From positions 1 through 36,371 of IMG/VR virus record IMGVR_UViG_3300050821_003656: a stretch of DNA of 36,371 nucleotides. One strand, written 5' to 3'. This stretch comes from a virus. This document shows, one piece after another, positions 30,714-36,015 of the stretch (positions are counted from its first letter, which is position 1; each line of letters begins with the position of its first letter). The notes beneath the pieces are model-generated. The model did no database searches, had not been told where the DNA came from, and saw only the letters and a program-made list of their open reading frames with translations. Made by a program: the position numbers and the translations under genes.

Positions 30714-33323
30714 TTAGGAGTCTCCAGCCGCTAGTGATTTGTTCAATGTGCTAGGAGACACCAACCCACCCTTACCTGTAGATATGGCAGCGTGAATATT
30801 GGTTAGTATCTTATTCTGTTTCTCCATATCCTGATGCGCGGTGTCATCCGCAATTGGAATATCTGGAGTGTTACGACCATAATTGTGTGCATAGTTCATA
30901 TGCGTCGGTGTTCCGTTGTGGAACGACCCACTGCTCATATGGTGTCCCGGGTGTGCACCCATGGATACTGCCATCTGAGCTTCGTGTATATGGTGCAACT
31001 GGTTGGACAACGCACTACCCTTCTGATGTGTATAGTCTACACCGTCTCCAACTCCTGACAGCATTTGGTATATACCGTATAGCCCATACAGTACTGCGGA
31101 TAGCCCAGCAACGGCAGCAATAACAGGGGCTAACCCTGCCGCCATAGTTGCGCCAAGTCCTTCCAGCGCCGGGATCACGGATTCTCCCAGGGCTGTCTTT
31201 GAAAATGTAGACCACAGTGTCTTTCCAGCCCATTTAGCAATAGTGCCCATCTTGGTCATGTTGTAGATGTTCTTAGCTAGGTACACAGCAGAGGCCGCCT
31301 GCATAAAGTTAAACTCATGGAAGAAATCAAGTATCGGCTGAGCTTTACTGTAACTCCAATTTACAATAAAATTCTGCATACGTTCAGTCCATGATTTACC
31401 CTTAGCTGCGTCTTCGTTTAGTTTTGCCCACGGATCAGCTATTTTATTCACACCGTCAGCTATATTGCCGAAGTCATTGACGATGTTGCCAGCTTCTCTA
31501 CCAAAGTTTATCATGTCACCGACGTTATCAAAGCCTAGGTGCATAGTCTCATTAATGGTATTGAGATTCGTGGTGTTCGTACCGAACGAACGTATCTTTG
31601 CACCAATAGCTTCAATTATACCTATGGTACCTTGCTTGGACTTCAGACGATTAAGGATCTCTGGACCCTGTATGCCGAGTAGGGAACTGATAGCCAGGCC
31701 CTCTGGAGAATTTATCCTATCTGCCGCCTTAGCGAGCATAGTGCTGATGTGATTATCAGTATCACCGAAGTTCTTCTCAGCTGCCTGTCCGAGAGCTGCC
31801 ATGTTTTGCAGGATGTCTCTCTTTTGATTGGGGTCCATGATGTTAGCGAATGCACCACCCATATTTCTACGGTTCTGTAGCGCACGCTCAGCTAGAGTCT
31901 CAGCCGAGTTTGGACCAGCTTCAGCAGTTTTGCTCAATCCCGCGAACATCCCTGCCGCACTTGCTTTATCCAAGTGCATGTTGTCAGCCATGATCCTGGT
32001 CAAGGAAGCAGCTGTGCCAAGATTGATACGCATAGCCTGAGTAGACAACGCAGTTAATCCGGCGAACTTCGATATGGTCTGCATGCGCATACCCGCATCG
32101 ATCATCTCATTGACGGTCTCACCCATGATAGTCGGGTTGAGAACCCCAGGACCGTTCTTCGCCATCTCAATCATGGTCGTACGCATCCCGTACAACTCCA
32201 TGCGCGACAGATGGAGAGTACGGTTTGCCTGATTCATGTTGTCGAAGAAGTTTTGAACTGGACTGTCGGTTCCGAGCGCATGCTGTAGGTGCTTGGCTCC
32301 GTCCTTAGCGTTTTTACGCCAGGTCTCCCACAGCTTGGCGAATGCTATGAATTTCGTATCAGTCTGAATACCCTTTAAGGTTTTCTGGACCTTTGTAAAT
32401 CCAACACTCAAAGCATTTACTACTTTACCGGTAACTGACATATTCCAGAGGAGCGCTTTGGAGTTCTTGACGCTCAAGGCGAGCATAGCCTGTGAAGTAC
32501 CGAGCCTAGCGCCTAGGGCATCCCTCTGACCTTGAGGGAGTTTGTCGTATGCGGCATTGAGGTTAGAGCTCGCGCGACCCGATAAACCCACCGCCTTCCT
32601 TAGAGCCCCTATGTTTGTCGCAGACCCTTGACTCGTTAGCTTGTCTATCGCGATGGATAAATTGTGGAGGTCCGACATGCCTCGGGACATACCCGTAGAC
32701 ATAGTCTTTTTCTTTGCAATCTTCCGGAGCATATCAGCCTCCGTGCTAGGCAAGACCATTTCATTCTTGCTCAGTAGCGCGAGGACATCATCGAACCCTT
32801 TTCGTGAGCCGCCCTTGACGTCTCCACCCTTTGAGAAACGCGGGACCTTCAGTGATCCAGCCATATCTGCCGGTTGCGTCTGGTTGAGGTAAGCGGTCTT
32901 TAGAGCCTGGCCATTGTCGAACCCCTTGGCCCGCTTATTAGGCAGTACCGGAGACATCCGAAATGTTGCTTTAGAGAGCGCACGCCCAACCGCTCGAGCT
33001 ATCGTATCGGAGAATGCTTTGCTGCCCTTTTGGCTAACTACTAAGTCTATAGTTTGCTTGAGAGGCTTGACATTACGCTTCATGGAAGCATAGGCACGAT
33101 TGTAGGCCTTGACGCTATCTTCAGGGAACTTGGCGAAGGACTTGGCTAACTGCGTCATTGCGGAAAAAGAGGAGTTAACGCTCTTCTCAGCCTTCGTGTT
33201 CAATACACTCAGCTTTTTAGTGAAGGTCTCATATGATTTTGCGGCTTTTGCAATCGTTCCCGACAGTTGGTCATCCAACTGAAGCATGAAGCCGATAGAA
33301 TCATTAGAAGCTGAAGCAGGCAC
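30714..33323 (-). CDS. Tail tape measure protein
   Basis: The 869-residue protein is long, helical and Ala/Lys-rich, directly upstream of the hub genes, as expected of the tape measure. A segment FSKGGDVKGGSRKGFDD followed by LLSKNEMVLPSTEADML is a typical tape-measure motif. A hydrophobic stretch near residues 728-754 (AAGLAPVIAAVAGLSAVLYG) may act in membrane passage. Residues about 770-815 are unusually His/Met/Asn/Gly-rich (MGAHPGHHMSSGSFHNG). Length would fix the tail at very roughly 130 nm if 0.15 nm per residue applies. ATG start with a 73-bp gap upstream. Confidence 0.92.
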   Translation of the reverse strand: MPASASNDSIGFMLQLDDQLSGTIAKAAKSYETFTKKLSVLNTKAEKSVNSSFSAMTQLAKSFAKFPEDSVKAYNRAYASMKRNVKPLKQTIDLVVSQKGSKAFSDTIARAVGRALSKATFRMSPVLPNKRAKGFDNGQALKTAYLNQTQPADMAGSLKVPRFSKGGDVKGGSRKGFDDVLALLSKNEMVLPSTEADMLRKIAKKKTMSTGMSRGMSDLHNLSIAIDKLTSQGSATNIGALRKAVGLSGRASSNLNAAYDKLPQGQRDALGARLGTSQAMLALSVKNSKALLWNMSVTGKVVNALSVGFTKVQKTLKGIQTDTKFIAFAKLWETWRKNAKDGAKHLQHALGTDSPVQNFFDNMNQANRTLHLSRMELYGMRTTMIEMAKNGPGVLNPTIMGETVNEMIDAGMRMQTISKFAGLTALSTQAMRINLGTAASLTRIMADNMHLDKASAAGMFAGLSKTAEAGPNSAETLAERALQNRRNMGGAFANIMDPNQKRDILQNMAALGQAAEKNFGDTDNHISTMLAKAADRINSPEGLAISSLLGIQGPEILNRLKSKQGTIGIIEAIGAKIRSFGTNTTNLNTINETMHLGFDNVGDMINFGREAGNIVNDFGNIADGVNKIADPWAKLNEDAAKGKSWTERMQNFIVNWSYSKAQPILDFFHEFNFMQAASAVYLAKNIYNMTKMGTIAKWAGKTLWSTFSKTALGESVIPALEGLGATMAAGLAPVIAAVAGLSAVLYGLYGIYQMLSGVGDGVDYTHQKGSALSNQLHHIHEAQMAVSMGAHPGHHMSSGSFHNGTPTHMNYAHNYGRNTPDIPIADDTAHQDMEKQNKILTNIHAAISTGKGGLVSPSTLNKSLAAGDS

Positions 33324-33396: not shown

Positions 33397-35073
33397 CTAG
33401 TTGCCTCGCCTGCTGTTGTCTCTCAGACCTTGTATATTGCGATATACCCCCGGCCCTGGCGTTCCCAGCGTGGGCGGTGATATATAAGGAGGCGGTCCAG
33501 GTGGCAACTGACTGCCATAATTAAACCGGGGATCTGTGAGCACGAACGGTGCGCTTGTATAGATCGTTCCGCCTGTAGTTGCTTGGATATTGAACGTTAT
33601 CGAAAGTCCCTGCCATTCAGCACCAACGGGGAGGTCCCATAGGTCGGTCTGATTGTGATTCGACGCGAAGCTAACATTCGTACGTTCCGCGATACGCACC
33701 ACGATGTCGCCTGGTAACGTGATCTCCCACCAGGTATTAACTAATGATATAGTAGTAGGTCCAGCGTTCCCTACGTTGGTTACGTGGTACTGATTATCAA
33801 TAGTTACTGATTCTATAACAGGCGAAGGGTTTAAAGGTACTGGAGCGGGGGCTTGCCACGGAGCGTATTGCAGTCCGTTGACGATAGGCGCGGATCCGCC
33901 TGGTACGAGGAATGGACCAGCAAAGTTTGCGGCCCATGAAATGGGTAATGCTGTGATTCGCCCAATAGCTGGATAAAAGTCCGTGAACGCGCTTAGCGAT
34001 AGTCTAGCAGGAAGTGAATCACCACTAGGAATTGGTAATCCATTGCGAAAGAAGTATAATACTTTCGCGTCCATATCAACGGCTAGTCCAAACGTGTCTC
34101 CCGAAAGAGGCGCAGACGTGGATTCACTTGACAATAGACCTGAGGATGGAACTCCTCCAGCGTTTTCTACTTTTCCAGTGTTGCCAGCGCTTCCTCCATA
34201 AAAGTTTCCTGGACCCCATCCACCGGCCTCTCCTATAAATGTACCTGTATGTGAATTAGCAATGTTTGATGTGATGTCTGATCGTGCGCTACCAGATATA
34301 ATACCAACGTATCCCCAATATTGCACGCCTCCTGCGTCAGTTTCCTCTACTTCAAAATAATACTGTCCTGATGTTCTACCCTGCCATCCTATGACATTGA
34401 GCAAAAGAAGGGGATTTAACGGATCGTAATTTGTCGGCATGTCAGAAGCCAACATTTGACATGGATCAAATTGAGAAATTGAAGCCCAAGCGGAGTAGGT
34501 ACTCGGTGGAGTGAACGCGAATACCGCTGCGTCTCCGCCATTTATTGTGACATTCATTGTATCAGCGGTTGGAGTTAGGTCTCCTTGTGCTATACATGGA
34601 CAATTACCACCTGTGGGATTGCTTGTTGTAGTTGTATTTGTACATAAACCCTGACTGACGCCGTTCTTATAGAACGTCACCGTTTGAGCGTCATTATCAA
34701 CGGCCATGCCGATGACATCACCCGTTGTGTATGACGACCCGTATGTTTGAGCTCCTGTATTATCAACTAATAACTTACCATCAGTGCGGTATAGCCAACA
34801 GTTCGTTCCGCCTGGCGTAGAAGTAGGTCCGTTTCCTGTACGATACTCCTGTAACCCAACTGCCATCTTTCCAGATGTTCCTGGGCTTCCTATCGTGAAC
34901 TCACAATACTTTTTCCCACCGCGCTGTCCTAGATTAGAGAATGCCGTAGGATAGGCCACTGCGTTGTTAACTAGCGCAACAGTTCTTCCGTTGTTAGACA
35001 ACGTAGCTGAGCCATAGGTCGGACTAATAGCTGCAGCTACAATAGAATCAAACCCAAATGGAATAGCGCTCAT
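33397..35073 (-). CDS. Virion-associated protein with two SPRY/concanavalin-like domains
   Basis: The 558-residue protein has two similar SPRY-like lectin domains (about 20-195 and 205-395). Each carries the strand pattern KYCEFTI or QYYFEVEE, GMAVDNDAQTVTFYKNG or GLAVDMDAKVLYFFRNG. A beta domain follows at about 405-520 and then a Pro-rich tail (PPGPPPYISPPTLG). These folds bind sugars or proteins; here they may decorate the tail or bind cell-surface glycans. It sits between the gp26-like gene and the tape measure, an unusual place. It starts two bases after the end of the frameshift extension. Low GC in parts suggests acquisition. Confidence 0.78.
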   Translation of the reverse strand: MSAIPFGFDSIVAAAISPTYGSATLSNNGRTVALVNNAVAYPTAFSNLGQRGGKKYCEFTIGSPGTSGKMAVGLQEYRTGNGPTSTPGGTNCWLYRTDGKLLVDNTGAQTYGSSYTTGDVIGMAVDNDAQTVTFYKNGVSQGLCTNTTTTSNPTGGNCPCIAQGDLTPTADTMNVTINGGDAAVFAFTPPSTYSAWASISQFDPCQMLASDMPTNYDPLNPLLLLNVIGWQGRTSGQYYFEVEETDAGGVQYWGYVGIISGSARSDITSNIANSHTGTFIGEAGGWGPGNFYGGSAGNTGKVENAGGVPSSGLLSSESTSAPLSGDTFGLAVDMDAKVLYFFRNGLPIPSGDSLPARLSLSAFTDFYPAIGRITALPISWAANFAGPFLVPGGSAPIVNGLQYAPWQAPAPVPLNPSPVIESVTIDNQYHVTNVGNAGPTTISLVNTWWEITLPGDIVVRIAERTNVSFASNHNQTDLWDLPVGAEWQGLSITFNIQATTGGTIYTSAPFVLTDPRFNYGSQLPPGPPPYISPPTLGTPGPGVYRNIQGLRDNSRRGN

Positions 35074-35075
35074 GG

Positions 35076-35282
35076 TTACTTCTTACTCTTGCTCTTTGCT
35101 TTAGCTTCTGCCTCTTCCCGTGCGTCCTTCTCCGTCTGGAACTGCTTCATGAGCTGGTTCACACGGATATTGAGTTCTGCGTAGGTCATGGCTTTTACCC
35201 CGGCATCGGTGAAGCCGTTACCATGGTATATGAGGAAGAAGGATCGGTCAAAGTAATCCTCAGGCGCGTAAGGAGCTTGGCC
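35076..35282 (-). CDS. 68-residue +1-frame extension of the gp26-like protein (frameshift product)
   Basis: After the TTT TTT C site at 35283-35289 the +1 frame is open to the TAA at 35076-35078 and encodes GQAPYAPEDYFDRSFFLIYH followed by GNGFTDAGVKAMTYAELNIR and a Lys/Glu-rich tail. Between the upstream in-frame TGA and residue 32 of this stretch there is no ATG, GTG or TTG; the only ATG, at 35189, would give a 37-residue stub that loses the conserved-looking FFLIYHGNGF part. I recall similar FFLIYHG.GF...Y-type tails on or after gp26-like proteins of other phages, though I cannot check. The stop is 2 bases before the next ATG, consistent with coupled translation. Confidence 0.7.
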   Translation of the reverse strand, partial: GQAPYAPEDYFDRSFFLIYHGNGFTDAGVKAMTYAELNIRVNQLMKQFQTEKDAREEAEAKAKSKSKK

Positions 35283-36015
35283 GAAAAAACTCCAACGTGA
35301 ACGGGAGCTTCATCTCATTCCCGAACCCACACGCCGGGCACTCTGCATGGACATCGAGGTTGATCCCAGGCTCACGAGCACTGAGTTCGTTGTCGATGAC
35401 GATCGAATCCATGGCGCTGAGTTCACGGCAGAACTTCTCACGGATAACCATGTCACCGGCTGGCTGTCCGTCGATAGCTACTAAGAGACGGGCCTGACGA
35501 TGGAGATTGGAGGGATCGGAGGGATCGTTCGAAGCTGAACCCGAAATACGCTTTGTATACTTCATCATGGCTTCCTCGTCGGTGCCTCGCATGAAGCGCA
35601 GGGTTACTTCCTTGCCACACTTAGGGAGCTTGATGGTGAAAGGGTCCGAGGCGCCCTCTTCTACCGGCTTACGCTCGAGATCTTCGAGAACATCACACTC
35701 GTGCTTGACACTCTTCTTACACGCTTCACACGTATAGTTGAAGGCATACTTAGGTCCGTACGACAGGATGCGCACACCAAGGAGCACAGCCAGACGATCA
35801 GTAACCAGGAGGTCCTTATGCTTGAATCCATTTGGGAGTTCAGCAACGGTATCGATGATCTTATTAATGCGATCCTGGAGTTGCCCAGACGCAAAGAGGA
35901 CAGAGAGTTCGTACGCAGTCAGAGAGCGGAGGGTGATCACTCCGCCGGGAATCTTGGCGTCGTAGAACGCGCCCTGAGAAGGGAGGGTGAACTTATTATC
36001 TTCAACGCTGGCCAT
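35260..36015 (-). CDS. gp26-like baseplate assembly protein (T4_baseplate family)
   Basis: The 251-residue zero-frame product resembles T4 gp26-family baseplate proteins. It has GVITLRSLTAYELSVLF, a four-Cys zinc-like pair (CEACKKSVKHEC and CPACGFGNEMKLP), a segment LRFMRGTDEEAMMK and the terminal FTLEFFRP. I use ATG 36015 (MASVEDNK), preceded by GGAG five bases upstream; the frame extends 11 codons further but without a ribosome site. The gene ends with a probable +1 frameshift at TTT TTT CGG giving a 312-residue fusion. Upstream is a promoter TTGACC-N17-TATAAG. It starts the tail operon segment shown here. Confidence 0.85.
   Translation of the reverse strand: MASVEDNKFTLPSQGAFYDAKIPGGVITLRSLTAYELSVLFASGQLQDRINKIIDTVAELPNGFKHKDLLVTDRLAVLLGVRILSYGPKYAFNYTCEACKKSVKHECDVLEDLERKPVEEGASDPFTIKLPKCGKEVTLRFMRGTDEEAMMKYTKRISGSASNDPSDPSNLHRQARLLVAIDGQPAGDMVIREKFCRELSAMDSIVIDNELSAREPGINLDVHAECPACGFGNEMKLPFTLEFFRPSSLRA
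35281..35289 (-). other. Probable +1 programmed frameshift site (TTT TTT CGG)
   Basis: In the zero frame the codons are GAG TTT TTT CGG. A Phe-tRNA on TTT can slip +1 to TTC, its better codon, while the rare Arg codon CGG waits in the A site. The same target frame could be reached by -2 slippage. Confidence 0.65.

Follow-up and report, generated by a model that had tools for sequence, protein, structure and literature searches.

A gp26-like gene of a T4-like phage and its overlapping +1 frame very probably encode two forms of a tail assembly chaperone

The window, by which we mean the whole stretch of DNA that was analysed (36 kb), is an IMG/VR record whose source is a T4-like phage, with PHROGs matches to DNA polymerase, Dda-, UvsX- and DnaB-type helicase/recombination proteins and baseplate proteins. 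It carries a gene for a gp26-like protein that falls in PF12322 (T4_baseplate; E=1.1e-12, 48.6 bits versus a curated cut-off of 24.5) and matches phrog_150 (baseplate hub; E=3.1e-17), and this gene is followed on the same strand by a SPRY-domain gene and by an 869-aa ORF presumed to encode the tape measure protein (Table 1). The latter assignment is inferred from the size and position of the ORF and from its helical and partly hydrophobic sequence, no match having been found in Pfam, PHROGs or NCBIfam. A Laminin_G_3 ORF (PF13385) was observed just upstream of the gp26-like gene at the contig edge; the upstream neighbour side, including the tail-tube gene, is outside the contig.

A sequence-only reading of this locus had proposed a programmed +1 frameshift at GAG TTT TTT CGG, and its description of the frames held in every point: the zero frame ends eight codons after the site (seven sense codons counting CGG, the stop being the eighth), and the +1 frame can be read from the site for 68 residues, with 31 codons passing before any start codon (the first ATG, GTG or TTG is at 35189), and ends two bases before the next gene, whose ATG is at 35073. 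The claim that TTT-C followed by the rare codon CGG is a known type of +1 slip site also held, since UUU_CGN is an established motif (PMC5052127) and, of all sense codons in the window, only one is rarer than CGG (4.0 per 1000 codons). For the window alone, however, 5% of trials with shuffled downstream sequence kept 60 or more codons open, and the window by itself is therefore merely suggestive.

Table 1. Features of the gp26-like locus, in window positions
Feature	Position	Strand	Remarks
gp26-like zero-frame ORF	35263..36015	-	251 aa; stop TGA 35262-35260
GAG TTT TTT CGG	35292-35281	-	near 3' end of gp26-like gene
Shine-Dalgarno-like GGAG	35290..35293	-	3 nt before P-site codon; possible stimulator
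Slip site TTT TTT C(GG)	35283..35289	-	based on sequence, 53 non-redundant relatives, re-pairing and UUU_CGN motif
P-site TTT, becoming TTC upon +1 re-pairing	35286-35284, becoming 35285-35283	-	A-site CGG 35283-35281
Stretch read in both frames	35263..35282	-	zero frame (CG)G CCA AGC TCC TTA CGC GCC; +1 frame GGC CAA GCT CCT TAC GCG CC
+1-frame extension	35079..35282	-	68 aa, gp51-like helical domain; stop TAA 35076-35078
SPRY-domain gene	33397..35073	-	PF00622, E=1.3e-13
869-aa ORF	30714..33323	-	presumed tape measure protein

Relatives were sampled from phage records and IMG/VR, prophages being left out. Eleven phage records have gp26 relatives, all less than 30% identical to the window protein; in IMG/VR, no relative was recovered when the window protein alone served as the query, and from a scan with an alignment query the best 80 further loci were taken (at least 569 exist), the scope being judged on the best 80 loci per scan. 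All 88 loci are distant (all aligned fused proteins are no more than 29% identical to that of the window), and the window has no close relative. A +1 extension of at least 60 residues follows directly after the F-F position in 84 of the 88, the four exceptions being two loci that shift to -1 (L022 and L037), one with a stop inside the extension (L031) and one at a contig edge (L058). The stop of L031 is an in-frame TGA about 26 codons past the slip in an extension that is otherwise well conserved (GGFI*SEVYYKMPIF), possibly reflecting a mutation, an error or a recoded TGA. Among named phages, the gene ends at the same F-F in SP-15, LIS04, GXN1 and Mel-JY01 and at F-L in immuto and LR756508, and in all six the +1 frame runs straight into a similar domain, for which the deposited annotation gives nothing or a short ORF starting part-way in (in Mel-JY01, a separate overlapping hypothetical ORF).

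The openness of the +1 frame was evaluated in 53 non-redundant relatives, where the mean shuffle probability was 0.8% and 53/53 were open for at least 62 codons; the -1 frame from the same point was open for 60 or more codons in 2/53, and the zero frame past its stop in 0/53. The first start codon past the slip lies at a median of 32 codons in these loci, and such late starts fall after a conserved GLTPxYR..IF...HG.GGF block of the extension (consensus FFGLTPxYR...IF.L..HG.GGFT...VYNMPI.LR.FY.K.L). The median dN/dS of the extension beyond the zero-frame stop was 0.21 (81 pairs), showing purifying selection, so the earlier impression that the +1 frame is protein-like is borne out by a conserved domain in the relatives. 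The window extension matches an HMM of the extensions of 73 other loci (E=3.1e-16, the HMM having been built with the window included), and it also gives a match to phrog_634 (baseplate hub assembly catalyst; E=0.015). A tblastn search with the extension alone gave chance matches only, in a Salmonella jumbo-phage paralogue array, and these were rejected. In Rhodothermus phage RM378 (L091, 3998-4675) the gp26 end reads TTT TTT TGG and is followed by a 71-aa +1 frame, which is unlike the family extension and stands in a different gene order.

The slip site is conserved along with the extension. TTTTTTTGGCCT was found at the slip in 42 of the 53 non-redundant loci; in terms of slip codons, TTT TTT TGG occurred 43 times (42 then CCT), TTT CTT TGG three times and TTC TTT TGG twice, and single loci had TTT TTT CGG (the window), TTT TTT CAC, TTT TTT AGT, TTC TTT CGT or TTT CTA TTC. 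Because the window is without a close relative, conservation of its own CGG variant is not demonstrated (in GXN1 the site reads TTC TTT CGT). Where the second slip codon encodes Phe it was TTT in 49/49 cases, against a TTT share of 81% in the rest of these genes (P=2e-5), although TTC would serve the protein equally and is favoured elsewhere in the window (200 vs 93). In every variant, one of the two slip codons allows +1 re-pairing with no mismatch, whereas pairing upon -2 re-pairing is not kept in every variant. Conservation of the site, the frame and the extension in distant relatives gives strong support to a programmed +1 frameshift at TTT TTT C/CGG.

Like the UUU_CGN sites of influenza A PA-X and plant amalgaviruses (PMC5052127), the window site has UUU in the P-site, a rare CGN codon in the A-site and a +1 shift to UUC, but it comes from a bacterial dsDNA virus, and most of its relatives use UUU_UGG. 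It meets the sequence criteria of that motif (an in-frame TTT, rare CGG next and an open +1 frame), no +1 product having been measured. As for possible stimulators, the +1 site of prfB has the same spacing from Shine-Dalgarno sequence to P-site as the GGAG of the window; nevertheless, this GGAG is not beyond chance, a Shine-Dalgarno match of 4 nt or more being present in 26% of random 14-nt stretches of the window, and a stimulator of this type was not significant overall across the loci. Downstream RNA structure gave no significant signal at the window (z=0.21), nor does it appear to be a general stimulator: of 12 loci, 10 (window included) were at z -1.6 to +1.4, with L007 (z=-3.5) and L045 (z=-2.8) as outliers.

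A mirror case was found in the branch of cyanophages, KVP40 and Aeromonas phages. At all 80 of the 80 IMG/VR loci examined, cyanophage gp26 ends in N TTT TTC Gxx stop (one locus having TCA); T TTT TTC is a classic -1 heptamer, and the -1 frame then yields a homologous domain of 55-65 residues. The same heptamer and a homologous -1 extension are present in KVP40, ZPAH1 and others, and the extension is hidden after T TTT TTC in Aeh1, S13 and 65 and after T TTT TTT in VmeM-32. Its presence in Aeh1, a phage described as lacking gp51, was predicted beforehand. Homology of the two extensions is indicated by a match of the window extension to the cyanophage -1 extension HMM, which was built without the window (E=1.1e-3). 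In an earlier description, cyanophages and vibriophages have a short 'gp51' without the first ~200 aa of T4 gp51, and gp51 is missing in Aeh1 (PMC3037559); the C-terminal domain of this short 'gp51' is homologous to the window extension, but what was taken there as a reduced separate gene is explained here as the frameshift extension of gp26, reached by -1 in those phages. Two sister loci that belong to the +1 clade, L022 and L037, encode the extension in the -1 frame instead; the slip codons of L022 (TTC TTC TGG) make a poor site, and the exact shift point is uncertain.

T4 gp26 and gp51, two genes on opposite strands and on record as hub assembly chaperones (PMC3004832), belong to the same family, PF12322, as the window gene, which is one gene with a frameshift. 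PF12322 spans residues 1-206 of gp26 and 1-201 of gp51, and the -1 extension profile matches the C-termini of gp51 from T4 (1.7e-4), Krischvirus (7.5e-7) and RB43 (1e-3), the matching part being the C-terminal 40-55 residues, indicating that gp51 consists of a gp26-type domain and the extension in one frame. T4 gp26 in turn stops where the slip site has its F-F, its last residues being ...KEFFELL. We infer, without expression data, that gp26 corresponds to the short form and gp51 to the long one, and the two look like a split and duplicated G and GT. Neither gp26 nor gp51 of T4 scored beyond shuffled decoys against the +1-clade fusion profile, so Pfam and the -1 clade provide the link from the window to gp51. 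A tree built on the shared domain separated the +1 clade with the window from the -1 clade (SH-aLRT 99) and placed both T4 proteins inside the -1 clade, with L022/L037 appearing as a switch to -1 within the +1 clade; this tree was a quick one with long branches, and its finer branching order is unsure.

The zero-frame part and the extension were folded separately. The AF2 model of the gp26-like protein (pLDDT 89) was closest, among PDB entries, to the HK97 tail assembly chaperone 2ob9 (Foldseek probability 0.91, E 0.13), which VIA-align placed at Z 5.8 with an rmsd of 4.2 over 88 aligned residues, the next match being at Z 2.6; 2ob9 therefore ranks clearly first, but the Z is moderate and only one part of the protein is covered. 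A PDB sequence search gave no match. The model of the extension (pLDDT 85) has three helices and found weak fold matches only (best E 0.12), among them a 'tape measure chaperone' (E 2.5) and a 'baseplate hub assembly catalyst' (E 3.8). In SP-15, LIS04 and immuto, the gene order is tube, gp26, extension, then a tape measure or putative tail gene (in SP-15, the gene after the pair is annotated as putative tail protein). Since such a gene directly follows the pair in these three phages, the SPRY-domain gene, which intervenes in the window, is read as apparently inserted after the chaperone pair and ahead of the tape measure gene, which is itself only presumed.

In lambda (gpG/gpGT) and HK97, a single gene adjoining that of the tape measure protein gives a short and a frameshift-extended form, and the window gene shares with them an overlapping second 3' frame joined by a conserved slip site. 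The likeness has limits: the lambda frameshift is -1 and that of the window +1, no sequence similarity was detected, and gp26 has additional domains, its extension being of a different, gp51-like kind. The best reading is nevertheless a G/GT-type tail chaperone pair, because of the fold match, the gene order of the relatives and the chaperone record of gp26 and gp51; it remains an inference, as there are no data on tape measure binding or product ratio. The sequence-only reading had contrasted tail chaperone genes, where frameshifts are well known, with a gp26-type gene, where one would be less familiar. This contrast is turned round here, as the gp26 family itself appears to be a tail assembly chaperone, by its HK97 chaperone fold match, its position before the tape measure gene and its homology to gp26/gp51.

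Our proposal, then, is that the gp26-like gene and the overlapping +1 frame very probably encode two forms of a tail assembly chaperone via frameshifting, although expression data are lacking. Most ribosomes would complete the zero frame and yield the 251-aa G-like form, which is presumed to be the abundant one, whereas a minority would pause at the rare CGG, where the P-site Phe-tRNA may slip from UUU to UUC (+1), and produce a GT-like form of 312 aa whose C-terminal domain is helical and gp51-like. If lambda gpG/gpGT is taken as the model, the common domain would coat the tape measure protein and the extension would recruit tail-tube or baseplate-hub subunits. The same arrangement, with a +1 or -1 site, is present in nearly all sampled gp26-family phages, and in T4 the two forms would be the separate paralogous genes for gp26 (short) and gp51 (long). 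The overlapping conserved frames, slip sites, purifying selection, gp26/gp51 homology and chaperone-fold match are shown by the sequences; actual frameshifting, the ratio of the forms and their binding partners are inferred. We also consider likely a bolder reading, in which the G/GT frameshift is ancestral in the T4 superfamily, +1 and -1 have switched at least twice, and T4 lost it via duplication of gene 26 into gp26 and gp51.

Three other explanations were considered. First, the fused protein could arise by -2 ribosomal frameshifting or by transcriptional slippage dropping a U from the T-run, as runs of T6 to T8, where -2 re-pairing is also perfect, are present at 46/53 sites. We regard this as very improbable: transcriptional slippage would need longer runs than the 3 or 4 T at the other 7/53 loci, -2 at TTC TTT TGG and TTC TTT CGT needs a codon-body mismatch that +1 does not, and UUU_CGN is already established as a +1 motif. 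The junction would differ (F-F-G for +1, F-F-F-G for -2), the predicted window peptides being LPFTLEFFGQAPYAPEDYFDR and LPFTLEFFFGQ..., respectively. Second, the extension could be a separate gene translated by re-initiation or coupling, as in some relatives. In L008 (LR756511), its own ATG overlaps the stop (TAATG) in the -1 frame, giving a split gene without need of a frameshift; early ATGs exist also in KVP40 and some cyanophages, and databases list cyanophage 'gp51' as a separate ORF. Most loci, however, keep the site and have late starts, that of the window lying past the conserved first half of the domain; an early start is also absent in C48C1, ZPAH1, Aeh1, S13 and 65, the slip codons are conserved beyond codon bias, and both parts are in one chain in T4 gp51, so that a separate gene is scarcely credible here. 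Third, a sequencing or assembly error splitting one gene in the T-run, also foreseen earlier and suggested by the homopolymer exactly at the site, is practically ruled out by the relatives, in which the same frame change occurs at the same codon in 84/88 loci from many metagenomes and cultured phages, also at sites without a long T-run, and only one relative does not have a short zero-frame C-terminus.

The preferred reading, two tail chaperone forms from one frameshifted gp26 gene, is of high interest for T4 tail assembly. According to a 2016 review, G-T frameshifting is widely conserved in long-tailed phages, T4 excepted (PMC5009743); if the gp26 family is the tail chaperone of T4-like phages, a G/GT frameshift exists in the lineage where it was reported missing, and if the short and long forms are represented by gp26 and gp51, the T4 exception vanishes and gp51 acquires a role that can be tested. 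In the open-access literature searched, no paper was found that connects gp26 with gp51 through frameshifting, so that novelty is unproven. The reading, if true, would also explain the oddly short cyanophage gp51 and the missing gp51 of Aeh1 (PMC3037559), and the family would allow +1, -1 and split-gene answers to a single stoichiometry problem to be compared in nature. A joined gene would then be needed in the annotation of many T4-like genomes, which are among the commonest marine viruses. In five T4-like phages of Aeromonas, Cronobacter and Vibrio (L177, L185, L186, L187 and L188), unannotated or partly annotated gaps of ~165-215 nt after gp26 hold the -1 extension, and their gene tables could be corrected.
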